NCBI GenBank assembly: GCA_038400315.1
Contig: CP151667.1
Location: 1,809,174-1,873,173 of the forward strand
Reading direction: 5' to 3'
Length of the DNA: 64,000 bases
DNA from: Isosphaeraceae bacterium EP7
GTDB lineage: Bacteria; Planctomycetota; Planctomycetia; Isosphaerales; Isosphaeraceae
Shown here: positions 20,071 through 62,100 of the stretch, piece after piece
Numbering within the stretch: position 1 is the first letter of the stretch
Layout of the letters: each line of letters opens with the position of its first letter
The notes under the pieces: model-generated
Databases searched by the model: none
Told to the model about the DNA's origin: nothing
The model's input: only the letters and a program-made list of their open reading frames with translations
Translations under genes and position numbers: made by a program

Positions 20071-22866
20071 ATGGCGAACGAGTCCAGGTCAGCGGCGGCG
20101 GGCGAGGCGGCCGTGGACCCTCGCCTCGAGGCGCTCCGCGATGACCAGATCGAGCGCTGGCGGTCCGGCGATCGGCCATCGGTCGAGCAGTATCGGGACG
20201 AGAACCCCAACCTGAGCTGGAACTCCAACGTCCTGCTCGATTTCGTTTTCGGCGAATACCAGATCCGCCAGCAACTGGGCGAGTCGCCGACCCAGGACGA
20301 GTATGCGGAGAGGTTTCCCGAACTGGCCGCGGCCTTCAGGCTCCAGGTCGAGGTCGACATCCTCTTCAATTCACGGCTCGAGCGGCTGAAGAAGGCGTCG
20401 GGCGCCGAGGGCGCCCCCCTGCCCAACCTCTTCCGCCAGGAGCAGACGCTCGCCGGCGTGGCCCCGCCTCTCTTATTCCGCAAGCCCGAGCTCGAGGGGT
20501 ATGACATCCTCGGCGAGCTGGGCCGCGGCGGCATGGGGGTCGTTTACAAGGCAAGGCAGCACAAGCCCAACCGCCTGGTCGCAGTCAAGATGGTGCTCAC
20601 GGGCTCGTATTCCTCAACCGAGCTGCTCGCCCGCTTCAGCCAGGAATCCGACGCGATCGCCCGGCTCCAGCACGCCAATATCGTCCAGGTCCTGGACGTG
20701 GGCGAGAGCCATGGAATCCCCTACCTCACGCTGGAATGGGCCGAGGGAGGAAGCCTGGAGCGGAGGCTCGACGGGACCCCCAGGCAGGTCGAGTCCTCGG
20801 CGCTCCTGGTCGAGAAGCTGGCCAGGGCGGCGCACCACGCTCATGTGCGCGGGATCATCCACCGCGACCTGAAGCCGGCCAACGTCCTGTTCACCGTCGA
20901 CGGCGTGCCCAAGCTCACCGACTTCGGCCTGGCGAAGATGCTGGACAGCCCGCTGGGCCAGACGCTCACCGGGCACATGCTCGGCACACCCTGCTACATG
21001 GCGCCCGAGCAGGCCCGAGAGGGAGCCCGCGACGTCGGCGCCGCGGCCGACGTCTATTCGCTGGGGGCGATCCTCTATGAGCTCGTCACCGGCCGGCCGC
21101 CGTTCCGCGCCTCGACCCCGGCCAGCACCATCCAGCTCGCCCTGACGCACGAGCCCCCCGCACCTAGCAAGATGCGCCCCGACCTGCCGCGCGACATCGA
21201 GACGATCATCCTGAAGTGCCTTCAGAAGGACCCGGGGCGCCGCTACTCGACCGCCGACGAACTCGCCGACGACATCATCCGGTTCACCCGAGGCGAGCAG
21301 ATCCGCGCCCAGCCCGACTCCTTGACCGTGCGACTGATCGGCTGGGCGACCCGCCACCCGGTCTACGCCTCGTTCGCGGGGGCCTCGGCACTCACAATCC
21401 TGATCCTCCCGGTCGTCCTGGCCCTCCTCTGGCTGCGCACCCTCGCCGCCCTGATCGAGAGCCGGGGAGAGGCCGACCTCCTCAAGTCCCGCGTGCAGAT
21501 CGTGCTCAGGAGCCACGCCAACGAGGTGCAGAAGGAGAAGGCCCGCCACGACGAGTTCTCCGCCGCGATGCGCAGGCTCAATGAGAACCTGCTGGCGGGC
21601 GACGACCTGCTCGCCCAGTACGAGGTGGGGGGGCCCAGCCCAGCATTCCTCGCGACCCGCAAGCGCGTGCTCGAGCAGTCGACCAGGGCCCTCCGCGACG
21701 TGATCCAGCGGCCCGGCGGCCGGTACGACATCGGCGACGAGTTCACCCGCAAGACGCTCGCGCAGCTCCTCAGGCGCCAGGCCACCATCTCCGACGTCCT
21801 CCGCCAACCGGGCGACGCCGACGACGCCTGCCGCGATGCGCTCAGGCTGGAGCAATTCATCGTCGATCAGTCTCCCGATGACCTCCAGAAGCGCTTCGAG
21901 ATGGCCCAATCCTGGATCACGCAGGGGGAGCGGCAGCTCGACGCTCATCGGGGGCGGCGCGCCCTCGAGGCCTTCGATCACGCCGCACGCACCCTCGACG
22001 CCATCGTCGGTCACCCCCTCGTCGGCGACTGGCTCCGCCGCTCGAACACCCCCGGACTCAAGCTCCACAACACCGCCGCGAACGCGACCCACCAGGCCTC
22101 GCTGATCCACGATGAGCTGAACCAGGTCGGCGAGGCCATCGCCACGCAGCAGCGCTCGGTGCAGTCGCTCCGCTATGGGGTCGCCTACATCCCCGAGGAC
22201 CGTGCCGACAAGACGGGCCTGGCGAAAGGCCTGGTCAATCTGGGAGAGCTCTACGCCAGGGCCGGCCGCGCCGATCAGGCCGCCAAGGCCGACACCGAGG
22301 CCGTCGCACTTCTTAAGGACCTGCTCCAGCCCGGCCTCGTCGTCCCGGCCATCCTCGCGGGGGAGGACTGGCAGAAATTCAGCCGACAGGGCGAGATCCA
22401 CGAGTGGCTCGGCGCCGCCCAGTCGAGGCTCGGCGCCCAAGACGAGGCCGCGTCTCACCTCCTCCAGGCGATCTCCATCCAGCAATCAATCCTCGACCGC
22501 CACAACGGAGAACCCCCCCGCGCCGTCCTCGTCAGGCTCAGGTCGCACCTGGGCCACTGGTCGACCTTCACCCTGGCCGCGCACCGGGTGGCCGACTCGA
22601 TCGCCGCCGCGCGGCGGCGAGCCGCCCTCGCCGACGGCGAGCCCGGCGAGACCTTCCAGGCGGCCCGGGTCCTCTCCATGGCATTCGCCCAGGCGAACCA
22701 GACCTCGAGATACGAGGCCGAAGCCCTCGACGAAGAGGCCGTCGCCCTCCTCCGAAACGCCGTCGTCGCGGGCCTCGCCGTCGGAGCCCCCTTCAGCGAC
22801 CCCGCCTTCGACGCCATCCGCAACCGCGACGACTTCCGCAGGCTGGCCGACCTGAAGGCCGAGTAA
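20071..22866 (+). CDS. Transmembrane serine/threonine protein kinase with TPR-like sensor region
   Basis: 931 residues. N-terminal helical region (about 15-110) with the planctomycete-type segment RPSVEQYRDENPNL. Kinase domain: glycine loop G151-R-G-G-M-G156, Lys173, HRD 264-266, DFG 284-286, APE in CYMAPEQA. One transmembrane segment at about 435-457. The remaining roughly 470 residues are alpha-helical with TPR-like repeats (LVNLGELYARAGRADQAAKADTE; LGAAQSRLGAQDEAASHL) and end in a segment ending FRRLADLKAE. They are predicted extracytoplasmic and could sense envelope signals. The last ~390 bases of the gene exist again, about 97% identical, at 28636-29025. Confidence 0.92.
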   Translation: MANESRSAAAGEAAVDPRLEALRDDQIERWRSGDRPSVEQYRDENPNLSWNSNVLLDFVFGEYQIRQQLGESPTQDEYAERFPELAAAFRLQVEVDILFNSRLERLKKASGAEGAPLPNLFRQEQTLAGVAPPLLFRKPELEGYDILGELGRGGMGVVYKARQHKPNRLVAVKMVLTGSYSSTELLARFSQESDAIARLQHANIVQVLDVGESHGIPYLTLEWAEGGSLERRLDGTPRQVESSALLVEKLARAAHHAHVRGIIHRDLKPANVLFTVDGVPKLTDFGLAKMLDSPLGQTLTGHMLGTPCYMAPEQAREGARDVGAAADVYSLGAILYELVTGRPPFRASTPASTIQLALTHEPPAPSKMRPDLPRDIETIILKCLQKDPGRRYSTADELADDIIRFTRGEQIRAQPDSLTVRLIGWATRHPVYASFAGASALTILILPVVLALLWLRTLAALIESRGEADLLKSRVQIVLRSHANEVQKEKARHDEFSAAMRRLNENLLAGDDLLAQYEVGGPSPAFLATRKRVLEQSTRALRDVIQRPGGRYDIGDEFTRKTLAQLLRRQATISDVLRQPGDADDACRDALRLEQFIVDQSPDDLQKRFEMAQSWITQGERQLDAHRGRRALEAFDHAARTLDAIVGHPLVGDWLRRSNTPGLKLHNTAANATHQASLIHDELNQVGEAIATQQRSVQSLRYGVAYIPEDRADKTGLAKGLVNLGELYARAGRADQAAKADTEAVALLKDLLQPGLVVPAILAGEDWQKFSRQGEIHEWLGAAQSRLGAQDEAASHLLQAISIQQSILDRHNGEPPRAVLVRLRSHLGHWSTFTLAAHRVADSIAAARRRAALADGEPGETFQAARVLSMAFAQANQTSRYEAEALDEEAVALLRNAVVAGLAVGAPFSDPAFDAIRNRDDFRRLADLKAE

Positions 22867-22923
22867 CCACCCAGGATCATCCCCGAATAAGCCCCGGCCA
22901 ACTCCCGTCGCCAGTGGCCGCGA
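22475..22923 (+). repeat. Long direct repeat, copy A (3' end of kinase gene plus 57 bp downstream)
   Basis: Aligns without gaps to 28634-29082 (constant offset 6159). There are about a dozen mismatches, most in the first 50 bases and last 15. The match continues about 57 bases past the stop codon into non-coding DNA, so it is a DNA duplication rather than selection on the protein. Confidence 0.9.
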
Positions 22924-23310
22924 CGACCATGAGAGTGAGTGGTCGCTGCTAAGAGGGCGGGTCAGGGACGGCCACGACGGACTCTGCCGTGGCCGCGCCC
23001 ATCGTTCATTCTTGCCCTGGTGTTGCCGAAAAAAATCGCATTCGCACCTCTAGGCCCCGGACGAGCGTCGTGAATTGCCCTCTATGTTTCGCTCTGCTGG
23101 CCGGAGGCCGATTGAGTCCTCCGCCCGGAAGTCCCGATTCGATCCATCCGGCAAGGGATGCGATCAGGCGTCCGACCAGACCTTGTGCGGGCGGCCGGAC
23201 GCCTGACAGATTGGGTTCTTCTCGCGATCGTGAGTCCCGGGCCGAGGCTCATTACCGCCTTGCGGATCGCTCCAAGGTTGATGGACCGAGGCGGAGCTCA
23301 GGAGGGACGC
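22924..23310. other. Convergent intergenic region
   Basis: Lies between the kinase (plus) and the propeller gene (minus). Apart from the hairpin above, nothing is recognisable. Confidence 0.4.
22969..22995 (+). terminator. Hairpin downstream of kinase gene
   Basis: An 8-bp stem, CGGCCACG (22969-22976) with its complement at 22988-22995, 102 bases after the kinase stop. No U tract follows, so function is uncertain. Confidence 0.35.
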
Positions 23311-24354
23311 TCACCACTTCCACCCCAGGCCGCCCGCATTCATCGGGCTCGCATCGCGGTCCGTGTAGGTCACGAGCGGCGTATACGCCCCCCCGCTGGC
23401 CGGCACCCGGACGAGGCTCGGATACATGTACTTGCCCACCATCCGGCGCATCCCGAAGGCCAACGTAGTCCCATCGGGCGAGATCGCGGGCGGCGAGAAC
23501 ATGTCGACATACTTAGACCCTGTTCCGCCCTCCTTAATGACCCAGCTCCACCGGCCGGTGTCCGGGTAGAACGAGACAATGCCCTTGGTCCCGTCCTTAT
23601 ACCTCGCCGGGCTGAACAGGCGGAATTCGGTGGAAGAGCCCCACGGGGACGTCATGTCGAGCCCGCTCACAGCCGGGTTGTTCACCGTGATCGAGGTTTG
23701 CGTCTGGTGGTTGTGGACGGAGGTCACGAACCTGCCGGCGGCGTCACGGTCAGAGTAGGTGAGCCAGGTCCCGGTAGGGTCCCAATCATAGAACTCTCGG
23801 AAGCGATAATCGTTGGTCTCGGAGATGACATACTCCAGGCGCGGGTCATCCGACGAGAACGGTATAAAGTCGGGCTGGAAGACGTCCGAGACCGGGCCGT
23901 TGTAGCGGTAGTACACCCAGAGTGATGTGCGCGTGTCGTAGACCACGAACGAGAAGAAGCTGTCCCGCTGGTCATTTGAGAACCGGCACCGGGCGCCGTT
24001 CTGGTCGAGGTACTGAGGGCCGCGGAAGTTCGTCACGGTCGTGGGGACCTTCCCTTTCTCCGAGATAAGCATGAGGTCCCCGTAGCTGGCCGAGACGCCC
24101 GGGATCGGGCCCAGGGGCTCGGCCGTGCCGAAGATTTGTCTGCCCCCCGGATAGATCTCCAGGGCGGTGGTCCTCACCCCCTTGGTAGGGCCGAGGTAGA
24201 CCGTGCCGGTGCCGTTGCCGGAAACCCGGTACGCGTCTCTCGGGGTGGTGGAGCCGTAGAGGTAATAGATGGTCCCGGGCCCGGTCTGGGTCTGGGCGGC
24301 GGTCGTCTGGGCGGCGTTGATGGCCAGGGCCAGCAGGAGGAGGCTGCGTCGCAT
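23311..24354 (-). CDS. Secreted WD40-like (PD40/TolB-type) beta-propeller protein
   Basis: 347 residues with a clear signal peptide (MRRSLLLLALAINAAQTTAA). Several blade-like units resemble PD40 repeats: PPAISPDGTTLAFGMRR near the C-terminus, with DWDPTGTWLTYSDRDAAGR and ALEIYPGGRQIFGTAEPL earlier. No enzymatic motif is visible. Probably periplasmic or extracellular. Its upstream region holds a 51-bp element (24488-24538) also found upstream of the nearby kinase-TPR gene, suggesting shared control by the adjacent ECF sigma factor. The ATG at 24354 begins the signal peptide. Confidence 0.75.
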   Translation of the reverse strand: MRRSLLLLALAINAAQTTAAQTQTGPGTIYYLYGSTTPRDAYRVSGNGTGTVYLGPTKGVRTTALEIYPGGRQIFGTAEPLGPIPGVSASYGDLMLISEKGKVPTTVTNFRGPQYLDQNGARCRFSNDQRDSFFSFVVYDTRTSLWVYYRYNGPVSDVFQPDFIPFSSDDPRLEYVISETNDYRFREFYDWDPTGTWLTYSDRDAAGRFVTSVHNHQTQTSITVNNPAVSGLDMTSPWGSSTEFRLFSPARYKDGTKGIVSFYPDTGRWSWVIKEGGTGSKYVDMFSPPAISPDGTTLAFGMRRMVGKYMYPSLVRVPASGGAYTPLVTYTDRDASPMNAGGLGWKW

Positions 24355-24699
24355 GGGAGAATTCCTCGTCGAAAGGGTGTTCCGGCACACGTGTCCGTCG
24401 CTCTGGGACGGGGCGAAGCCTCGCATCGGGCGGGATAAAGCTCATCACCACTCGCCTCGACCGGGCCCATCGTCGTCCCCTGTAGGTCAATGCGCAATCG
24501 GCTCATGGACTACCCAACAGAACGGGCAAGAATCACGGAAATTCTCGGCACGGGGGCCGGTTTGCCCTTCCGGGGTCATGCCAAGAGCGGCGCATGGCGG
24601 AACGTAAGTCCCGCCACGCGAGCCATCGAGGGAAGTGCGCGTAGGGGAACCGGTGACCGCCGAAGACGTCGCCCCAAAATCCCGCGATCTCCGGTCAGG
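24355..24699. other. Intergenic region holding a conserved upstream element
   Basis: Lies between the 3' end of the kinase-TPR gene and the 5' end of the propeller gene (both minus strand). Its notable content is the element at 24488-24538. Confidence 0.5.
24488..24538 (-). promoter_or_regulatory. Conserved 51-bp upstream element, copy 1 (propeller gene)
   Basis: Aligns without gaps to 27413-27463, with 37 of 51 positions identical. Identity is concentrated in blocks: a perfect 14-mer (24488-24501), an 8-mer TACCCAAC (24511-24518), and a 3' block containing AGAATC. Read on the gene's strand the order is GATTCT, GTTGGGTA, CCGATTGCGCATTG. It lies 134 bp upstream of the propeller start. Block conservation with variable spacers suggests a promoter or activator site. 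Confidence 0.6.
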
Positions 24700-27372
24700 T
24701 CACCTGGCGACCTCGTCCGCACCGGGCGTCGTCCCGAGCAGGGCGGCGGCCTCGGCGTAGAGGGCACGCGTCGGGGCGTCCCCCTGCTCCGGCTCGAACC
24801 CCGGCGGCAGCTTCGCGAACCATCCGCGGGCCTCCTCCAACTCGCCGCCGTGGGCGTGCACCAGCGCCAGGACCAGGCAGGCATGCCCGTCGGGCTCCCA
24901 GTCCGGTCGCGCCATCGTCACACGCGCGGCCTGCATCGCCCTCTCCGCCTGGCCCACGCGGTCGTAGGCCAGGGCCAGCGCGAGCCCGCCGGACTGTCCC
25001 TCGGAGATGGCGGCCGCGTCCTCGGCGGCGCGGACGGCGAGTTCCCCGTCGAACGGGGTCGACCTAGGGAGGGTGACGAGTTGTCGAACCAGTCGGATCA
25101 ATGTGATTGCCCGCCGCTCGCGCTCGTAAGGGTGGTGACCGGGCGGGGCCCCCAGGATCTCGCGGAGCCAGCGCTGGCACAGGTCGCGCAACGGCGCCGG
25201 GTCTGGCCTCTCCCGCAGCTTTCGCATGAGGTAGCCGAGGGCGCCGCTGGTCCGGATGTGGTTCGGGCCGAAATTTCGCCGGTAGCCCTCGGTGGCCTCG
25301 AGCTGGAGGGCGATCCCCTCGTCCTGCCGGCCCCGCCGGAACACGACGGCCCCGAGATAGCCCTGGCTGGTGAGCGTGTCCGGGTGGTCCGGCCCCAGGG
25401 TCCGGCGGCGATCCTCGAAGCCACGCCGGAACGCCGCCTCGGACCCCGCAAGGTCGCCCGCCAGCTCCAGGAGCACCTTGGCGTAGATGTGCAGCGTCCG
25501 GAGCGCGTCGGGGTGATCGGGGCCGAGGACGCGGGCCTGGTCTGCCAGGACTCCCTCGAGGACCTTCCGCGCCTCGTCCCGCTGGCCCCGGCGAAACAGG
25601 GCGTCTCCAAGATCCGAGGCAGCCCGAATCGTCTCGGGATGATGCGGTCCGAGCGCGCGGCGATAGAACGCCGAGGCGCGGCGGGCTAGCTTCTCGGCCT
25701 CCAGCCGGCTCGTCGTGGGGACCGTGTCCTGGAAGTTGAGGACCCGGACCAGGGTCGCCTGGGCCGCGACGGTTTGGGGCGCCTCGGGTCCGAAGTGCTG
25801 CGACCGGAGCTGGACGACGAGGCGATATTGCCGTTCGGCCTCATGGTAATCGCCGAGGGCGAAATAGGCCTCGCCTAGGGCGTGGCGCGCCGAGGCCTCG
25901 ACCGGCGGCCGGCGACCGAAGCGGGCGGCGATCTTCCCCTCGCCCCGCGTGAGGATGTCGTGGATCGTCGCGACCCGGCCGCCGTTGTTCTCGGGCGCCG
26001 CGCCGCCGAAGATATCGCCGACGAGGAAATCGAGAACGGCCCCGGTGTCGTCCAGGGCTGCGGCCGCCCGCCTCTCGGCCCGCGTCGCTCGGAACGCCTG
26101 CCATGCGCTGGCCGCCGTCCCGGCGAACAACGCCAGGGCGACCAGCGCCCCGGCGGTCAGGGCCGCGCGGTGGCGGCGGGCGTACTTCCCTAGTCGGTAG
26201 CGTGCCGACGGCGGGCACGCCTCCACCGCCTGGTCGGTCAGGTAGCGCATCACGTCGGCGGCGAAGTCGCTGGCCGTCTCGTAGCGCCTCCTCCTGTCTT
26301 TCTCCAGGGCCTTCATGGCGATCCAGTCCAACTCGCCCCGCACGGCGCGGTTAAGTCGACGTGGGTCGGAACCCCGCCGCGTCGAGACCGTTGATAGGGA
26401 CAAGCCCAGCGTGCTCAGGCGAGTGCTGGGCGTCGGCGGCTCGACCTCGCGGATGATCCGCCGCATCTCGTCGAACGCCGCCCTCCTGAGCGTCTCCGAG
26501 TCGAACGGTGTCGTACCGGTCAGCAACTCGTAAAGCAACACCCCCAGTGAGTAGATGTCCGAGCGGGTGTCGACGTCGAGGCCGCTCATCTCCGCCTGTT
26601 CGGGGCTCATATACAGCGGCGTTCCCACCAGCTGCGCGAACCCGGTGAAGAGCGTCTTGTCGGTGAGGCTCTGTCCCGTGGCTTTGGCAATCCCGAAATC
26701 GATCACCTTCGGTACTGGCACGCCGTCGTGCAGTGTCACCAGGACGTTCGACGGCTTAAGGTCGCGGTGAATCACCCCCTTCTGGTGAGCGTGCTGGACC
26801 GCCCGGCAGACCAGCACGAAAAGCTCCAACCGCGCGGCAACGGGCAATTGCTCGCGGTCGCAGAACTCGGTGATCGGGACGCCGCGGACTAGCTCCATGA
26901 CGAAGTAGGGGCTGCCCGAGTCGGTGGCGCCGGCGTCGAGCACCCGGGCGATGTTCGGGTGGTCCATCAGCGCCAGGGCCTGCCGCTCGGCCTCGAACCG
27001 GGCCACCACCTGCTTCGAGTCCATCCCCGACTTGATGAGCTTCAGGGCCACCTTGCGCCGCACCGGTTGCGCCTGCTCGGCCATGTAGACGGTGCCCATG
27101 CCCCCCTCGCCGATCGGCTCCAGCAGCTTGTAGGGGCCGATCGTCACGCCGGGTCGCTCGGCTGCGGCGGGCAGGCACACGGTCACGTCGCTGGTGGGCG
27201 CGATGAGGAAGTTCGCCTCCTGCTCGCCAACGCGGACCAGCCTCTCCACCCGGCGGACCAGGGCGGCGTCGCCCCCGCAAGCCTGAGCGAGGTAGAACGC
27301 CCGGGCCTCGCGGTCCGTGATCTTCCGTGCCACGTCGAAGATCGCCTCCTCGTCGAGCTGCACGGAATCCAT
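24700..27372 (-). CDS. Transmembrane serine/threonine protein kinase with TPR repeats
   Basis: 890 residues. Short helical N-terminus ([13 protein letters not shown], then [14 protein letters not shown]) of the kind common in planctomycete kinases next to ECF genes. Kinase motifs: G88-E-G-G-M-G93, Lys111, HRD 202-204, DFG 225-227, SPE in LYMSPEQAE. One transmembrane helix at about 412-433. Behind it are tandem TPR/Kinesin-light-chain-type repeats with recurring LGPxHPxT/D phrases ([39 protein letters not shown]). SD GGGAGG precedes ATG 27372. It lies 97 bp downstream of the ECF sigma gene and probably controls, or is controlled with, that factor. Confidence 0.93.
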
Positions 27373-27412
27373 CGACCGCCTCCCGGCTGGCTAGCACGTT
27401 TCCCCTTCAGTC

Positions 27413-27463
27413 CAATGCGCAATCGGGCCGCGCTTTACCCAACCCGGCCGGCGAGAATCTCGG
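27413..27463 (-). promoter_or_regulatory. Conserved 51-bp upstream element, copy 2 (kinase-TPR gene)
   Basis: The partner of 24488-24538, with identical block order and spacing. It sits in the 97-bp gap between the ECF sigma stop (27470) and the kinase start (27372), 41 bp upstream of the kinase ATG. Confidence 0.6.
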
Positions 27464-27469
27464 TGGCCT

Positions 27470-28048
27470 TCATCCGTCGGGCCCGTCCGCCTCGTCCCCG
27501 AGCATGGCGACCCGCAGCCAAGACCGGGCGTAAGCCCATTCGCTGTCGGCGGTTGAGGTGGAGATGCCGAGCACCTTGGCGGCCTGATCGATCGTCAGGC
27601 CGGCAAAGAAGCGGAGCTTGATCAGCTCGGCCTTCCGCCCGTCTTTGACCTCCAGGGCCGAAAGGGCCTCGTCCAGGGCGAGCAGGTCAAGGTCGGGTCC
27701 CGCGAGGGCCGGCTCGGCGACGGCCAGGTCGACCCGCTGACGGTCCCCGCCGGCCTTGAGGGCGGCCTTGCGGCGTGCGGCCTCGACCAAGATGCGGCGC
27801 ATGGCCTCGGCCGCCGCGCCGAAGAAGTGGCCGCGGCCGTTCCACCCCCCGGCATCCCCCGATCCCACCAGCCGCAGGTACGCGTCGTGGACCAGCGCCG
27901 TAGCCTGGAGAGTCTGGCCGGGCTTCTCCTTCGCCAGCCTCGCGGCGGCGAGCTTGCGGAGCTCGTCGTAGACCAGCGGCAGCAGTCGCTCGGCGGCCTC
28001 GGGTTCGCCGTGCTCGATGGCCGAGAGGATGCGGGTCACGTCATTCAT
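27470..28048 (-). CDS. ECF-type RNA polymerase sigma factor (Sigma70_ECF, TIGR02999-like)
   Basis: 192 residues. Region 2 spans about residues 15-90 (LLPLVYDELRKLA, then LQATALVHDAYLRL, then FFGAAAEAMRRILVEAARRK); the last two phrases are hallmarks of the TIGR02999/PF07638 ECF-like family. Region 4 is at about 125-180, with a helix-turn-helix LRFFAGLTIDQAAKVLGIS and YARSWLR. No anti-sigma gene is adjacent; instead a transmembrane kinase follows, the usual arrangement of kinase-linked ECF factors in planctomycetes. It may direct transcription from the conserved element found twice downstream. ATG at 28048. Confidence 0.93.
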   Translation of the reverse strand: MNDVTRILSAIEHGEPEAAERLLPLVYDELRKLAAARLAKEKPGQTLQATALVHDAYLRLVGSGDAGGWNGRGHFFGAAAEAMRRILVEAARRKAALKAGGDRQRVDLAVAEPALAGPDLDLLALDEALSALEVKDGRKAELIKLRFFAGLTIDQAAKVLGISTSTADSEWAYARSWLRVAMLGDEADGPDG

Positions 28049-28096
28049 CGCCTGCGGCCGCCCCGAGGTTCACAGTCCGGCGAGAGCAGGTCGCGA

Positions 28097-28132
28097 CCGA
28101 GCCGGCCCGGGTTCCTCCCCGGGCCGGCTCGG
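28097..28132 (-). other. Very stable hairpin in the leader of the ECF sigma gene
   Basis: A perfect 15-bp GC-rich stem (28097-28111 with 28118-28132) and a 6-base loop, 49 bp upstream of the sigma start. No U tract is present on either side. It could be a terminator for transcripts entering from the right, or a structured 5' leader. Confidence 0.55.
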
Positions 28133-28466
28133 GGAGAATGAGACGCCGAACCATATTATCCGATGCCCATGCGAGGAGACAGGCCGCCGGGCAGGTGTTG
28201 TTCCCCGGCATCACGCGACCGAGGGACCGGCGGGCGGATGGCCATGCGGGGGAGCTTTGCCGGAGATCGTTCCCTTTATCTGGGGCAATCGATGCGATAG
28301 AAATCCAAGCCTTCAATCCGATCATGAACTTTAATGAGCGCAATCCCCGACTGGGTCAATTTTGCCGTGGTTCAACGGCATCCGGAAACGGGATGACCCC
28401 AATTCCGATCGACCCAACACACGAGTTCGAAAGGCGTCGAGCCAGGTGAGCGACTGACCCCGGGTC
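28133..28466. other. Non-coding region left of the scar
   Basis: No gene is supported. From about 28440 rightwards the sequence resembles the region just downstream of the membrane-protein gene at 30894 (both contain an AGCC-GGTGAGC stretch followed by related sequence). Confidence 0.4.
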
Positions 28467-28620
28467 TCAACGACCCGGCGGCACGGTCCCCACTTTGCCC
28501 GTCCAGGGGGCCAGGAACAGTGGGGCGGACCAGGACCAGACTGACTCGGGATGCTCGTCGATCTGCACCGCGATGTTCCAGCGGCAGGCTTGCAGGTAGA
28601 CGCCGGGAACTTGCATCAGG
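28467..28620 (-). pseudogene. C-terminal fragment of a paralogue of the 30894-32489 membrane protein
   Basis: The minus strand encodes about 50 residues ending at a proper stop (28467): MQVPGVYLQACRWNIAV, then IDEHPESVWSWS, then LFLAPWTGKVG. These closely match the last 50 residues of the intact gene at 30894-32489 (MQVPGVYLHACRWNIAV, IDEHPDSVWSWS, FLAPWTGKAG). Nucleotide identity is roughly nine in ten, lower than for the kinase repeat. The 5' part of the gene is missing; the break lies near 28620. Confidence 0.85.
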
Positions 28621-28633
28621 AGGCCGGACGATA

Positions 28634-29082
28634 CCATCCAGCAGTCCATCCTCGACCGCCACACCGGGGAGGCCCCCCGCGCCGTCCTCGTCAGGCTCAG
28701 GTCGCACCTGGGCCACTGGTCGACCTTCGCCCTGGCCGCGCACCGGGTGGCCGACTCGATCGCCGCCGCGCGGCGACGAGCCGCCCTCGCCGACGGCGAG
28801 CCCGGCGAGACCTTCCAGGCGGCCCGGGTCCTCTCCATGGCATTCGCCCAGGCGAATCAGACCTCGAGATACGAGGCCGAAGCCCTCGACGAAGAGGCCG
28901 TCGCCCTCCTCCGAAACGCCGTCGTCGCGGGCCTCGCCGTCGGAGCCCCCTTCAGCGACCCCGCCTTCGACGCCATCCGCAACCGCGACGACTTCCGCAG
29001 GCTGGCCGACCTGAAGGCCGAGTAACCACCCAGGATCATCCCAGAATAAGCCCCGGCCAACTCCCGTCTTTGGTGGCCGCGA
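28634..29082 (+). repeat. Long direct repeat, copy B
   Basis: Ungapped match to 22475-22923 at about 97% identity, including about 57 bp beyond the stop codon. The left edge abuts the membrane-protein fragment. Confidence 0.9.
28636..29025 (+). pseudogene. C-terminal fragment of a kinase gene (copy of 22477-22866)
   Basis: Encodes the last 129 residues of the 20071-22866 kinase in frame (IQQSILDRHTGEAPRAVLV... to FRRLADLKAE and stop), with about five amino-acid changes. There is no kinase domain, and no start codon or ribosome-binding site in a sensible place. An in-frame GTG at 28747 could open a 92-residue frame, but expression is unlikely. Confidence 0.85.
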
Positions 29083-29332
29083 TCGAAACCGATCCGCCCC
29101 GCCAATACCACCGCCCGCGCGTGGACTGGCCCTCGATAAGCGGGCGACGATCGAGCCCCTGAGGAGCCTGACCGACGCGTCGCAGAAGCCAAGGTTGCAG
29201 CCTCCCGGCTGGCGACTCCAGGTGCGGCTCGATCCGCAGCATCGCCCGTGACGCCTCACCGTGATATCCCCGGTCGGCGTAGGCGACGTTGCGCAACGCC
29301 TCGGAACCGCCCGGTTCCTCCCACAGACGACT

Positions 29333-29455
29333 CCCAGGGACAACGGCTTCATCGAGAGCTTCTACGCCAATCTCTTGGATGAGTTCCTGGGTCGCGTGGA
29401 CTTCGACACCTTGTTGGAGGCGAAGGTGCTGATCGAGCGACGGACGCTGGGATCC
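29333..29455 (+). pseudogene. IS3-family transposase (integrase core) remnant
   Basis: The plus strand encodes DNGFIESFYANLLDEFLG, then VDFDTLLEAKVLIERR, clearly the conserved DNG-x-IESF-x-x-x-L-x-DE-L and LLEA-x-VLIE segment at the end of IS3-type OrfB transposases. The usual following segment (YN..RPHSSLGY) is absent, as are the upstream catalytic Asp residues and terminal inverted repeats. Only about 40 codons remain. Confidence 0.8.
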
Positions 29456-29712
29456 TACCGGCTCCGGAACCTCCATAGCCTGAGCGATCGTGTCCTGGAT
29501 CCCGAGGTCGAATGGCTCCTGGTCGCGGGAGCCGCCAGGGCGTACGCGGCACGATCGCGATGATCGAGGCTGAAATCTTCCAAAGGGGGCGGACCATGCC
29601 AGGTGATGGGACGTCCGATCAAGCGGAGCCGGGACGACACGGGTGCCGCCCGGACCACGAATTAATGAGTCTTCATAATAGATTATTCATGCATGATCAA
29701 GAAAAGGTCGCC

Positions 29713-30345
29713 TCAGGCGGGACGCCCGGCTAGCCGGCGGCGGGCAAGGGAGCCGAAGGTGACGACGACGCCGAGTCCCATCAGGACCACACTGGCCGGC
29801 TCGGGCACGGCCGCGGCTCCGGAGACGAAAACGGCGCCGATCTGGGTGTTCGTCCCGCCCGGTGCCGCGGGGAAGGCGTTCTGCGAAGCATACTCGCCCG
29901 AACGGGTCGTGTAGGCCCCATTCAGCGTGATGGTCGCGAAGAAAGTTGCGTCAGCAAAAAGGGTCTGGCCGTTGTAGGTGAAGGAAATGTTCGCGATCGA
30001 TGCGCTGTCGACTGGATTGATCGAGCCGCTCGAGGGGACGGGCGTGAAGCCGAGGTTCTGCACCGTGACGCTGAAGTCGGAGGACACCATGACGACGCTG
30101 CTCGGATCGGTGACCCCCGCGCCGAAGTCGTACAGGGTCAGGACGTCCCCGTCGGTGAGCTGCTCGGACCCGCCATTGCTCGAGAAAATCAGGCTGTAGG
30201 TGAAGACTGAGGCTGCGCCGCCGGGGGCCGGGCTGTCCAGGATTGGCACGAAGCCGGCGTGGGCGGCCGGAGCGGCGGTCCCGAAGGCGACCGCGGCCAC
30301 CCCCAAGGCGAACTTTTGAAGAAGACGCCAATTCATGTTGATCAT
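29713..30345 (-). CDS. PEP-CTERM sorting-domain protein
   Basis: 210 residues. An N-terminal signal peptide ends about residue 32 (KFALGVAAVAFGTAAPAAHA). The mature beta-rich domain has no recognisable enzyme motif. The C-terminus is a complete PEP-CTERM signal: VPEPAS, a hydrophobic helix (VVLMGLGVVVTFGSL), then ARRRLAG. It is therefore predicted to be sorted and cleaved by an exosortase (none in this window), often in organisms making exopolysaccharide. Start ATG 30345 is preceded by AGGAA at good spacing; ATG 30336 is an alternative. Confidence 0.9.
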   Translation of the reverse strand: MINMNWRLLQKFALGVAAVAFGTAAPAAHAGFVPILDSPAPGGAASVFTYSLIFSSNGGSEQLTDGDVLTLYDFGAGVTDPSSVVMVSSDFSVTVQNLGFTPVPSSGSINPVDSASIANISFTYNGQTLFADATFFATITLNGAYTTRSGEYASQNAFPAAPGGTNTQIGAVFVSGAAAVPEPASVVLMGLGVVVTFGSLARRRLAGRPA

Positions 30346-30893
30346 CAGGGTTCCTGTATATTTGCACTCGGGCGACGAGAGCATGCGGTGTCCCGGTGGA
30401 CCTCGGTCGGGCTGTATGCTACGCCTTTCCGCGAATCGAAACCAACGAATTGAACAAACCCTGTTGCCGAAATAAGACATGCGATTCTCAGAAGCCGGCG
30501 ACTCTGTCCTTGCCGCCGCTGTCGCCGACGATGCGCAGGCAGTACTGATCGAGGGGGAGGAGCGGCGAGTCTTTCGATGATTGGGCGACATGCGGTCGAC
30601 ATCGTGGGCAAGACGACTCGCACCCAGAGCTTAAGAATGAAGTTAATCGCATTCGACTGCTCGAATATCACGCGATCGACCGAGTTGGCATCGGTTAATT
30701 CGAGGACGTCGCGTCGATTACTTTAAAAAATAGTTATAATTAGAATAACTTGTATTGAGCCATTCGCGTCTGTTGTGACGAACGCGATCGTGCTGACCTG
30801 CCCCGGGAGCATGCTTCGATCGATACCGGGCAGCAATCGAGGCTGCGAACGAGCTTGTATGGGGCCAAGCCGGGTGAGCAAGGGACCCAGGGC
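30346..30893. other. Intergenic region with an unusually AT-rich tract
   Basis: No gene is supported. Around 30715-30755 the base composition falls sharply (runs of A/T including a 6-bp stem AGTTAT/ATAACT), unlike the surrounding GC-rich DNA. It lies downstream of the membrane-protein operon and upstream of the PEP-CTERM gene, so it may contain the operon terminator and the PEP-CTERM promoter. Confidence 0.45.
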
Positions 30894-32489
30894 TCAACCA
30901 CCAGGCGGAACGGCTCCCGCCTTGCCCGTCCAGGGGGCCAGGAACGGGGGATCGGACCAGGACCAGACGGAGTCGGGATGCTCGTCGATGTGCACAGCGA
31001 TGTTCCAGCGGCAGGCATGTAGGTAGACGCCGGGGACTTGCATCACGATGCCAGTCAAAGTCAGGGTCGCCACGGTCAGGCGGCCCCACCTGGTTGCGCA
31101 GAGGACGGCCAGCCCCGGCAGGGCCAGCAATGCTAGCAAGGGCTGGGTTTCGACGATGAGGCGAGATCCCCAGCAATAGCCGCCGTACCAGATGCGCCAG
31201 GCCGCGATCAGCAGCAGGTGCGCCACGACGATCAGGCCGCAGAGGAGCATGAAGCCGCGAGGGCCGGTCGTGATGCCCAGGGATCGGGCCGAGTGGAGGC
31301 AGGCGGGGACCAGGGTGAGCAGGGCCAGGATTGCCCAGGGTTGATAGATCAGAAGGCCTCGGCCGGGGCTCGCCAGCAGGCCCATCAGCGGCCATCCGAT
31401 GTGCGTGGTCCAGCTTGAGCCGCCCATTTGCGAGGTCGACGGGCCCAGCGGGCTGCCGTAGATGGAGAGATACCAGGCCGCCCAGGGGGCGTAGACCAAA
31501 GCGGCGAGGCCCACCACGGCCAGGGCTCGCCTCGGCGATTTCCAGAGCATCCAGAGGCCGAACGGGATCAGGAAGCTCGCCGCCGTGAGCCGGAAGGAGG
31601 GGAGCAGGCCGCACGCGACGCCTTGGGTCACGATTCCAACGCGACCGGGCCCCCCTTCGCGGGAGACTTCGGCCAGCAGCACCGCCATCATCGCTAGGAT
31701 GATCCCGCCGTGCTGCCAGGCGCCTCGCGCCACCGTCGAGAACATCCCCGAGCCGAGGCCCAGGATCAGGGTCGCCAGCAAGGCCAGGGGCGCCGGGGCC
31801 AGCCTCGCGGCGATGAGGAAGAAGAGGCCAAGGGCGGTCGCCTCGACCAGCGTCGCGACGATCTTCTCCAGCCGAGCCTGCACCGGGACGGCGAAGAGGT
31901 CGGCACCCGCCAGACGGGCCAGGCCAACGACGGGAGTCGCCAGCAAGACCATCCCGGCCGGGTAGGCCGAGTAGACCCGACCATGGCGCCGCGTGAGGTC
32001 ATACGCCAGGTGCGGACCTCGCCCGAACAGGTTGTCGGGCCGTCCCGGGCGATCGAACTCGTCGAGGTCCCAGTTGCCCTGGGTGACGAGGCTCACGGCG
32101 GTCGGGATCACCGGCCGGGTGTCGCCGGAACCCTCGAAGTCGTTGTTCGACAGGTCGAGCAAGATCGCCGGCAAGGTGACGAAGAGCAGGGCCGCCCGCC
32201 AGGGAGGGACGCCCCCGCATTCATTGAACTCGGCCAGCGAACCCCACCACGCCCGGACGACGCCCGAGATGCGTGCCCGATAGCCGGCCGAGGCCAACAT
32301 GAGCACCGCCGGCGCAATCAGCCCGATCCAGGGGGCCGAGGCATAGTTGCCCTTGGCTCGCAGGCAGAGCAGGGCGGCGAAAACGCCAATGCCGGCGACG
32401 ACGAGGTCGACGGCCATCCTCAGAATCCGCCGCGGGTGCGGGCGACCGGCCCGGGTTGTCCTCGGCTCGAACTCGACGTCCGGGGGCAT
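30894..32489 (-). CDS. Multi-pass integral membrane protein (possible GT-C-like glycosyltransferase)
   Basis: 531 residues with roughly ten or more hydrophobic helices spread from about residue 25 to the C-terminus. A large loop near 120-165 contains NNDFEGSGDTRPVIPTA and DLDEFDRP, acidic phrases of the type seen early in GT-C glycosyltransferases and mannosyltransferase-like proteins. No family can be named with certainty. Start ATG 32489 has SD GGAGGAG. It is third in a phosphodiesterase-ACP-membrane protein operon, 21 bp after the ACP stop. A partial paralogue lies at 28467-28620. Confidence 0.75.
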   Translation of the reverse strand: MPPDVEFEPRTTRAGRPHPRRILRMAVDLVVAGIGVFAALLCLRAKGNYASAPWIGLIAPAVLMLASAGYRARISGVVRAWWGSLAEFNECGGVPPWRAALLFVTLPAILLDLSNNDFEGSGDTRPVIPTAVSLVTQGNWDLDEFDRPGRPDNLFGRGPHLAYDLTRRHGRVYSAYPAGMVLLATPVVGLARLAGADLFAVPVQARLEKIVATLVEATALGLFFLIAARLAPAPLALLATLILGLGSGMFSTVARGAWQHGGIILAMMAVLLAEVSREGGPGRVGIVTQGVACGLLPSFRLTAASFLIPFGLWMLWKSPRRALAVVGLAALVYAPWAAWYLSIYGSPLGPSTSQMGGSSWTTHIGWPLMGLLASPGRGLLIYQPWAILALLTLVPACLHSARSLGITTGPRGFMLLCGLIVVAHLLLIAAWRIWYGGYCWGSRLIVETQPLLALLALPGLAVLCATRWGRLTVATLTLTGIVMQVPGVYLHACRWNIAVHIDEHPDSVWSWSDPPFLAPWTGKAGAVPPGG

Positions 32490-34431: not shown

Positions 34432-34797
34432 GGGTTGGCCTTGGCAGGACCGGCCCCGGTTGCCGCCTTTCGCCCCGAACCCCGGCGCGAGCGCCGTGCT
34501 TCGGGGCCGCCGCCCTCCGTGGCGGTCGGGGCATCCTGGAGCGCCAAAACGAGGGAGATTGGCGCGCCGGCTCCCGGGATGGCGGGACCGTAACCGGACT
34601 TCCACGATCGGTCAATCCCGACACTCGCCACCCGCGCAATCCGGAAATTCCTCAGAAACCTCAGACTTCGATTCAAGTCGATCCGGCCGGACCGCCGATA
34701 TTCAGCGTTGTCGACGGCGTGTGCCCAGTGCCGCTCCGTCTCCCCCAAGGCCCCGGACGCCTCCTCGTCCGGCCAATGTACCCGAGGGTGTTGCACG
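34432..34797. other. Divergent intergenic region
   Basis: Separates the phosphodiesterase operon (minus) from the SLBB lipoprotein gene (plus), so it should hold both promoters and suggests co-regulation. No specific site is assigned. Confidence 0.4.
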
Positions 34798-35529
34798 ATG
34801 ACCGCACGGACGCGGAACCGATCGCCCCTCGCACGGACCCTCGCCGCCGGGCTCGTCCTTTGCGCCGCGGGGCTCGAAGGGTGCGGGCTGACCAGCAAGC
34901 ACGCCGCACGCAAGATCGAGCAGCGAGGGGAGTTCGACCTCAACCAGCCCCGAGAGCTACAGATGGTCTCGCTCCCCCCCTATGTGGTCGAGCCCCCCGA
35001 CGAGATCGAGGTCATCGCCAAGCCCGCCTCGCTCGACCTGCCCAATACCACGGCCATCGTCCGCCAGGACGGCGTCATCGACCTCGGATTCCACGGCGAC
35101 GTCTACGTCTCGGGGCTCACCTTGAGGCAGGTCGAAGAGAAAATCGCCGACCTCCTCCGCTCCGAGGCCGCCCAGCTCAACATCGCCGACCCCGTCGAGG
35201 TCTCCGTCCGGCTCGTCAACGGCAGCCAGAGCAAGACCTACTACGTCCTTGGGGCCGTCACCTCGCAGGGCAAGTTTCCCATCACCGGCAGCGAGACCGT
35301 CCTTGACGCCATCCTCCAGGCCGGGCTACGTACGAACAGCATGCCCGAGAAGGCCTACGTCACCCGCCCGCATCCCACGGGCGGCAAGGACCTGATCCTC
35401 AAGATCGACTGGGAAGGGATCCGCGAGCGCGGGGACACCACCACCAATTACCAGATCTTCCCGGGCGACCGCATCAACGTCCCCGGAGGAAAGCCCCCCG
35501 GGCTCCTCAGCAGCCTTATCGGCGGCTGA
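34798..35529 (+). CDS. Polysaccharide biosynthesis/export lipoprotein (SLBB, Wza-like)
   Basis: 243 residues. A signal peptide ends at a lipobox-like LEGC near residue 30. The Poly_export domain starts with YVVEPPDEIEVIA and continues with VRQDGVIDLGFHGDVYVSGLTLRQVEEKI, textbook for outer-membrane polysaccharide export proteins. One SLBB domain follows (YYVLGAVTSQGKFPITGSETVLDAILQAGL). It is short for a Wza homologue, so likely a minimal form. No Wzc or polymerase genes are visible nearby. Start ATG 34798. Confidence 0.9.
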   Translation: MTARTRNRSPLARTLAAGLVLCAAGLEGCGLTSKHAARKIEQRGEFDLNQPRELQMVSLPPYVVEPPDEIEVIAKPASLDLPNTTAIVRQDGVIDLGFHGDVYVSGLTLRQVEEKIADLLRSEAAQLNIADPVEVSVRLVNGSQSKTYYVLGAVTSQGKFPITGSETVLDAILQAGLRTNSMPEKAYVTRPHPTGGKDLILKIDWEGIRERGDTTTNYQIFPGDRINVPGGKPPGLLSSLIGG

Positions 35530-36964: not shown

Positions 36965-37427
36965 CTCGATCTCCTCCTCCCTTCATTTTCTCGCACGCGT
37001 CATCCGGGCAATTCCCCCGGGAAACGGAGACCTCGGATCGCCCGAGTTCGAAATCCTCGAACTCTGAGCACGCTCAGAACCAGATCCATTTGTAGGGCGG
37101 AGAGGTAACCTTCGACTTGTTCCTATTAATCCTATCGACTTTCAAATAAATCGCATCTCAGACGCTTCTGCGAGTCTTGATTAATTCGATCGACTTAAGT
37201 ACAAATCGTCCATAGAGCCTCCTCGGTCCTCGCGGACCATCGGTGTGTCGCTCGAATTCACCGTCATCCGGACCTCCCTCGACGGCGAGCCTCCCTCCGT
37301 CGGTTTTCCCGTTGCTATGGGCTGAAACCGTCCCGCGCCCGCCCCCGCAAGGCGGCCATGGCGGCTCCACGCGCACGTGGATCTCGATCAGTGCCGGGAC
37401 AGCGGCCACTTTCCCCCCAGGAGTTCG
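36965..37427. other. Intergenic region upstream of a DUF1559 gene
   Basis: About 460 bases with AT-rich patches at 37110-37205 that probably include the DUF1559 promoter. No gene is supported. Confidence 0.4.
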
Positions 37428-38540
<1,113 letters not shown>

Positions 38541-61038: not shown

Positions 61039-62100
61039 TCAGAACGCGTCCGCGCTGACGATCTCGCCCCCGGCCCGCGTGCCGATCCCCTGGTAAGCCA
61101 GGTCGTTGATCGTGCTCTTGATGAACTTCACCGAACCGTCGGCGAAGGCGAAGTTGCCGCCTCCGGGGTGGTTGCTGCGGAAGGCCCACTGGCCGAGGGT
61201 GAGGGCCTGGGGGCAATTGATCAGCCAGTCGGTAGGGATGCCCGCACCGCTGCCGCAAACACCCCAGATCGAGCTGATAATATTGCCGGTCGTGTCAGGC
61301 GGCGAGTTGAGCCGGGGCAAGGTGAAAGCACCCGTCTGAGGGCGCAGGTCTCCGGGCCAGGTGCTGCCGCGGGTCGTGGTGCCGAAGACGGCGGTGAAGT
61401 AGTAGAAGTTGAACTGCGTCGTCTGCTCGTTCTTGAACCGCGACATCTCGCCGAACAGCGTCGTATTGCTCGTCCCATCGGTCACGCCGGAGACGGAAAC
61501 GGCACTCTCGGCCCCGAACATCCCGTTGCCGAGCGCGGCATTGCACTTGTTGGCCTGCTCGCCGGCGGGATCCGGGAAGGTCGTCTTGGCCCAGTTCGTG
61601 TAGATATTTTCCTGAGTTCCGCGGCTCATCCCGTAGGACGTCTGGGCGGCCGGGAACTGGGCCTCCGTCCCCGGAGGGGCGAGCAAGTCGGAGGGGCAAA
61701 TGTAGCCGGCAACTCGCGTCCCGAAGGCCGTGGTATTGCGGACGGAGTTGGCCACGCCGCTGAAGTTCGCGGAGTTGTACTGGGCGGTCGCCTCGACGAA
61801 CGGAAGAATCAAGTTGAACGCGGAGTGACCCGACCAGCTATCGCAGGTATTCACACCCGTGGTAGAATCCATATATCGATTGCCCAGCGGAAATGTGCCG
61901 TTAGCCGACTCGTAATTGGCGCAGGCCAGGCCCAACTGCTTGAGATTATTGACGCACTGCGCGCGACGGGCGGCCTCGCGTGCCGACTGTACAGCGGGGA
62001 GCAGCAGGGCGATCAAGACGGCGATGATCGAGATCACCACCAAGAGCTCGATCAGGGTGAATCCCTTGCGGGCGAGGCGGAGAGATGGGATCGAGGTCAT
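61039..62100 (-). CDS. DUF1559 domain protein with prepilin-type N-terminus
   Basis: 353 residues. Prepilin site [18 protein letters not shown], then [17 protein letters not shown]. Mid-protein: CPSD and VTDGTSNTTLFGE. C-terminal H-X9-DG: HPGGGNFAFADGSVKF. It ends GGEIVSADAF, close to [10 protein letters not shown] of the 37428-38540 paralogue, so both keep the same C-terminal tail. SD GGGAGAA precedes ATG 62100. Forms a pair with the small lipoprotein. Confidence 0.95.
   Translation of the reverse strand: MTSIPSLRLARKGFTLIELLVVISIIAVLIALLLPAVQSAREAARRAQCVNNLKQLGLACANYESANGTFPLGNRYMDSTTGVNTCDSWSGHSAFNLILPFVEATAQYNSANFSGVANSVRNTTAFGTRVAGYICPSDLLAPPGTEAQFPAAQTSYGMSRGTQENIYTNWAKTTFPDPAGEQANKCNAALGNGMFGAESAVSVSGVTDGTSNTTLFGEMSRFKNEQTTQFNFYYFTAVFGTTTRGSTWPGDLRPQTGAFTLPRLNSPPDTTGNIISSIWGVCGSGAGIPTDWLINCPQALTLGQWAFRSNHPGGGNFAFADGSVKFIKSTINDLAYQGIGTRAGGEIVSADAF

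Follow-up and report, generated by a model that had tools for sequence, protein, structure and literature searches.

An old pair of back-to-back gene remnants in Isosphaeraceae bacterium EP7, best explained by one tandem duplication

Here we describe two gene remnants that meet by their broken 5' ends in a 64,000-nucleotide stretch of contig CP151667.1 of Isosphaeraceae bacterium EP7, referred to below as the window. One of them, memB, is a copy of the 3' end of a membrane-protein gene; the other, kinB, is a copy of the 3' end of a gene for a Ser/Thr protein kinase. The intact parents of both, MEM_A and KIN_A, lie within 9 kb of the joint. We put it at slightly better than even that a single tandem duplication, with later conversion, interval replacement and decay, explains this fragment pair. 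The locus is termed best explained by tandem duplication, and not a proven one, because the interiors of the two repeats are unlike. It is an old scar, of a kind that is ordinary in bacterial genomes.

Table 1. Positions in the window of the two remnants, their parents and the neighbouring debris
Feature	Position	Strand	Remarks
KIN_A, intact Ser/Thr protein kinase, parent of kinB	20071-22866	+	Pkinase E 1.5e-51, residues 144-398
memB, 3'-end copy of membrane-protein gene	28421-28625	-	about 52 codons, stop 28467-28469, 46 bp of 3' flank
Joint of memB and kinB	28626-28633		8 bp outside both blastn homologies; compatible with direct fusion over CCAG (now CCGG)
kinB, 3'-end copy of kinase gene	28634-29082	+	codons 802-931, stop, 57 bp of 3' flank
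Putative gene-conversion tract inside kinB	28673-29068	+	4 mismatches/396; edges 6/39 and 4/14
Probable DUF1559 / H-X9-DG pseudopilin C-terminus remnant	29149-29225	-	just past the 3' flank of kinB
Transposase orfB remnant, integrase core	29306-29533	+	rve_3 E 5e-6
MEM_A, intact membrane protein, parent of memB	30894-32489	-

Comparison of the window with itself established that both fragments, which a first-pass annotation had recognized from the sequence as truncated genes, are real. Over its whole length kinB aligns without gaps to 22475-22923, the 3' end of KIN_A, at 96.9% DNA identity (14 mismatches in 449 bp). The match of memB is to 30849-31052, the 3' end of MEM_A, at 83.9% DNA identity (blastn E 7e-58; 205 alignment columns with 32 mismatches and one gap opening). 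By tblastn, 4 of 130 residues differ between kinB and KIN_A, and memB shares 76% identity with MEM_A over 55 residues. Each fragment keeps its natural stop, that of kinB ending at 29025, followed by 3' flank that the annotation, otherwise correct in its coordinates, had drawn slightly short. The separation of about 16 bp given there narrows to 8 bp when measured between the ends of the two homologies. As for the parents, the C-terminal part of KIN_A has weak TPR matches below the Pfam cut-off, and MEM_A matched no family of Pfam or NCBIfam at E <= 0.01.

Such a fragment pair is not commonplace in the window, since the self-comparison gave only three other matches of at least 80 bp, which are 88-145 bp long and 71-81% identical. 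Two pseudopilin-like genes, at 37377-38540 (plus strand) and 61039-62100 (minus strand), both DUF1559-like by reading alone, match each other in two stretches of about 140-145 bp at 71 and 81% DNA identity. Searches returned no RNA families at gathering score and no tRNA.

The whole genome (G000, 7,199,273 bases in 5 contigs) was searched with the 643-bp DNA query, 40 of 302 first-look candidates being scored, and yielded three matches at E <= 0.001, namely the query itself and the two parents. No further pieces were found genome-wide with the whole membrane protein or with kinase codons 478-931. Within 27000-30890, tblastn with both full proteins recovered the two fragments, everything else being at chance level (E 0.27-0.88). 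An assembly artefact was considered and dismissed by reasoning, since the copies made by a duplicated contig end would be near-identical, whereas these have 14 differences in 449 positions and 32 in 205.

A structural clue is the order of the four genes. Reading from the left, KIN_A points rightward, memB leftward, kinB rightward and MEM_A leftward, with the joint between memB and kinB; KIN_A thus lies left of the joint on the strand of kinB, and MEM_A right of it on the strand of memB. These sides and strands are the ones that a head-to-tail repeat requires, as at the joint of a tandem duplication. On a rough count, one in 16 random combinations of side and strand would agree with this, leaving the closeness of the parents aside. 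The annotation had remarked that intact relatives occur in the window in a different arrangement; that arrangement is itself the clue, as it matches a tandem duplication.

We propose that one tandem duplication would have copied a segment reaching from a point near 22470, within the kinase gene, to a point near 31053, within the convergent membrane-protein gene. The outer copies, KIN_A and MEM_A, would have remained whole, and the inner copies would have been cut at the new joint, so that their broken 5' ends meet. The interval DNA between the pairs would later have been replaced or lost, through decay and mobile-element debris in 29083-30848, through insertion in 22924-28420, or both. Meanwhile memB would have drifted to 16% divergence, gene conversion would have replaced the middle of kinB with sequence of the intact kinase gene, and both fragments would have ended as presumably inert remnants.

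At the joint itself the microhomology, which the annotation had singled out as a point to check, is at most 4 bp (CCAG), possible as a site of fusion and not significant. Many candidate break-points there score alike. A chimera of membrane-protein and kinase sequence aligns through the joint with single-base gaps only; the leftward extension of the kinase homology is equalled by 22% of random sites, and the rightward extension of the membrane homology past 28625 scores zero. Homology through the joint was therefore rejected as strong evidence, having failed this random-site control. In Salmonella, spontaneous duplications with short junction microhomology have been reported, 5 of 8 tested being verified; the tally in the abstract is of junctions whose microhomology exceeds 10 bp, as against the 4 bp or less here (PMC3411829). 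Work in E. coli recovered a join point into which a 9-bp microhomology had been designed, and its authors refer to an earlier study in which microhomology was not necessary (PMC11111574).

The homology expected of repeat interiors is lacking: between 22924-28420 and 29083-30848 there is no detectable similarity beyond the shared flanks of 57 bp and 46 bp. When the whole intervals were compared, the strict local score was reached by 21 of 40 shuffles and the lax one by 3 of 40. For the membrane side alone the corresponding counts were 27 and 6 of 100 shuffles, and for the kinase side alone 79 and 23 of 100. Because the intervals would have been tandem copies at birth, replacement in at least one unit is assumed.

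The first of these intervals holds a TolB-like protein (by reading; the Pfam match, PD40, is weak) and, at 24700-28048 on the minus strand, a second Ser/Thr kinase adjoining an ECF sigma factor (Sig-70_X6). The second kinase and the sigma factor have several paralogues elsewhere in the genome, with longer matches at 67-77% DNA identity, some as similar pairs, for example at G000:C1:3278080-3280066 and 3355269-3357240. We considered whether this block is an inserted cassette, a question on which matches of 67-77%, being ordinary gene-family similarity, settle nothing. The other interval holds the DUF1559 remnant, the transposase remnant and a PEP-CTERM gene. With its DUF1559 pseudopilins, ECF sigma factors and PEP-CTERM protein, the genome has a planctomycete look. 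The DUF1559 remnant matches a DUF1559 gene with an H-X9-DG end at 73% DNA identity over 77 bp (tblastn E 1e-5); from Pfam alone, its 47 residues gave nothing. The transposase remnant, which we take to be of IS3 type, matches at the protein level (46% over 78 residues) a longer orf pair at G000:C1:2708100 (L067), near which a second similar transposase frame is present.

The annotation had attributed both truncations to a single deletion between two formerly divergent genes. Its one-event part fits the data, there being one joint with at most 8 bp outside the homologies and no stray 5' pieces in 27000-30890. A deletion between two complete divergent genes is possible but unneeded, as one tandem duplication yields the arrangement without a lost pair of this kind. 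A deletion would find its place if a larger tandem duplication had copied both complete genes, leaving a divergent pair, leftward MEM_1 and rightward KIN_2, from which a later deletion across the joint removed both 5' ends. This history, which we regard as rather improbable though the best of the alternatives, gives the same order and strands at the price of one extra event, and the intervals are without similarity under it too.

The substitutions in memB bear on this choice. Its codons differ from those of MEM_A by 8 nonsynonymous and 9 synonymous changes, with dS = 0.35 as counted from codon 9 of the common stretch. When a copy that had never been functional was simulated, 3-9% of runs gave a nonsynonymous share of 8/17 or lower, so the amino-acid changes are somewhat few for such a copy. 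The changes fit two selected copies at omega 0.2-0.3 (probability of at least this many, 0.35-0.64), more poorly at omega 0.1 (0.047) and not at 0.05 (0.004). The pattern thus leans mildly toward a functional period before decay, and hence toward duplication of complete genes followed by deletion.

Against this stands the survey of relatives, in which the intact divergent pair, proposed as a check by the annotation, was not seen among 45 family genomes. The kinase tail is without a close homologue outside its own genome, which is the sole member of its genus in the family sample, so this test has little power. Among the 45 genomes, kinase codons 478-931 matched in 15 at E <= 0.001 and the membrane protein in 16, the own genome being included in both counts; the best kinase match from another genome is 28% identical (E 9e-9). 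Five other genomes (G003, G005, G011, G049 and G050) match both proteins, and in these the listed matches fall on different contigs or are separated by over 2 Mb; the kinase matches in these five are weak, the best per genome ranging from E 9.8e-5 to 6.5e-4. Against 40 relatives the 643-bp DNA and the membrane protein each matched in 12, again including the own genome, and the other DNA matches were short (24-94 bp). The kinase tail was also compared with 397 class genomes sampled from a larger group, up to 6 candidates being scored in each, and matched in 3 at E <= 1e-6, the own genome and two others at 28 and 33% identity. The 55-residue membrane fragment matched in 7 of the 397 at E <= 1e-4, the own genome included. 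Two scans of a named genome collection, from which the own genome was perhaps excluded, gave no relative.

MEM_A has relatives at 39-47% identity in 6 family genomes. When the neighbourhoods of the membrane gene in 6 relatives were compared with 13 window proteins, the block was kept in one only (G016), where counterparts of the acyl carrier protein, the phosphodiesterase and protein 34708-35529 adjoin the membrane gene in the same order, on a contig that ends about 1.2 kb past the 3' end of the membrane gene. Since these neighbours are kept, MEM_A is probably the copy at the ancestral locus, and memB the derived one. In the window, MEM_A adjoins an acyl carrier protein of ornithine-lipid type (NF052616) and a type I phosphodiesterase; the protein at 34708-35529 reads as a putative export protein from sequence alone. 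At another locus (L061), a partial kinase domain, cut by the locus end, lies about 8.6 kb from the membrane gene of that locus.

The two fragments have diverged unequally from their parents as wholes, kinB at 14 of 449 positions and memB at 32 of 205 (P 5e-8), and for this reason the single tandem duplication needs a conversion step. The same inequality would suit two unrelated events, a recent partial copy of the kinase gene having landed beside a partial membrane-gene copy that was already old, and mobile-element debris does lie nearby. We nonetheless think this unlikely, as no more than 8 bp separates the broken ends, the parents stand on either side in the order that a single event would give, and the left edge of kinB is as diverged as memB. 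Furthermore, independent insertions with their own end repeats, the outcome that would have told against a common origin, find no backing in 28300-29750: no direct-repeat family of at least 12 bp occurs there, a threshold that shorter target duplications would escape, and the 5 inverted pairs of 12-19 bp do not bracket the fragment ends.

The differences between kinB and KIN_A are clustered non-randomly, as expected of gene conversion: the first 39 bp hold 6 of them, the following 396 bp hold 4, and 4 adjacent ones fall in the last 14 bp. With edges picked after inspection of the data, Fisher tests found the left edge (6/39) and memB (32/205) equally diverged (P = 1.0), and the middle (4/396) distinct from the left edge (P = 6e-5). 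Without chosen edges, the longest identical run, 185 bp, has P about 0.007 under random placements; the densest cluster of mismatches has P about 0.008 in 30 bp and 0.03 in 40 bp, and is not significant in 60 bp (0.15). In the kinase codons, dS is 0.46 at the left edge (15 codons) and 0.02 over the rest. The 3' flank of kinB is as conserved as its coding part, with a single mismatch in the 43 bp between the stop and 29068, and the identity is for this reason put down to copying and not to coding selection. The simplest reading of these few sites suggests that the middle of kinB was overwritten by KIN_A through gene conversion. As in other cases of conversion between paralogues, a near-identical central stretch is bounded by diverged edges, but here one partner is a 130-codon fragment and the signal comes from 14 differences.

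It is very doubtful that kinB was kept as a functional small protein, a C-terminal tail, or as a donor of sequence to the intact kinase: it lies within an open frame of 141 codons, only 4 of 130 residues differ from KIN_A and, of 9 coding differences within the 449-bp match, 6 leave the amino acid unchanged, but antisense and alternative frames are open there too, the 3' flank is equally conserved, and a scan of 28040-30900 for promoters and terminators, limited to consensus sites, found none. In the same vein, kinB would serve KIN_A as an archive, a direct repeat that lies about 6 kb from its 3' end and still exchanges sequence with it, a conjecture to which we give scant credence. Were it true, the kinase tail would evolve in concert with kinB or occasionally be reshaped by it.

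The single tandem duplication that we favor resembles the novel joint of a bacterial tandem duplication in that partial gene copies abut and whole copies lie outside. It differs in its age, the divergence being about 16%, in repeat interiors that have ceased to resemble each other, and in one copy that looks partly homogenized. The fragments also resemble bacterial pseudogene remnants, being copies without 5' ends that lie beside transposase and DUF1559 remnants; the paired arrangement is all that sets them apart. Plain identity may misdate such fragments when gene conversion has refreshed one of them. Back-to-back gene stumps of this kind may mark the joint left by a single local duplication, and the finding carries no wider consequence.
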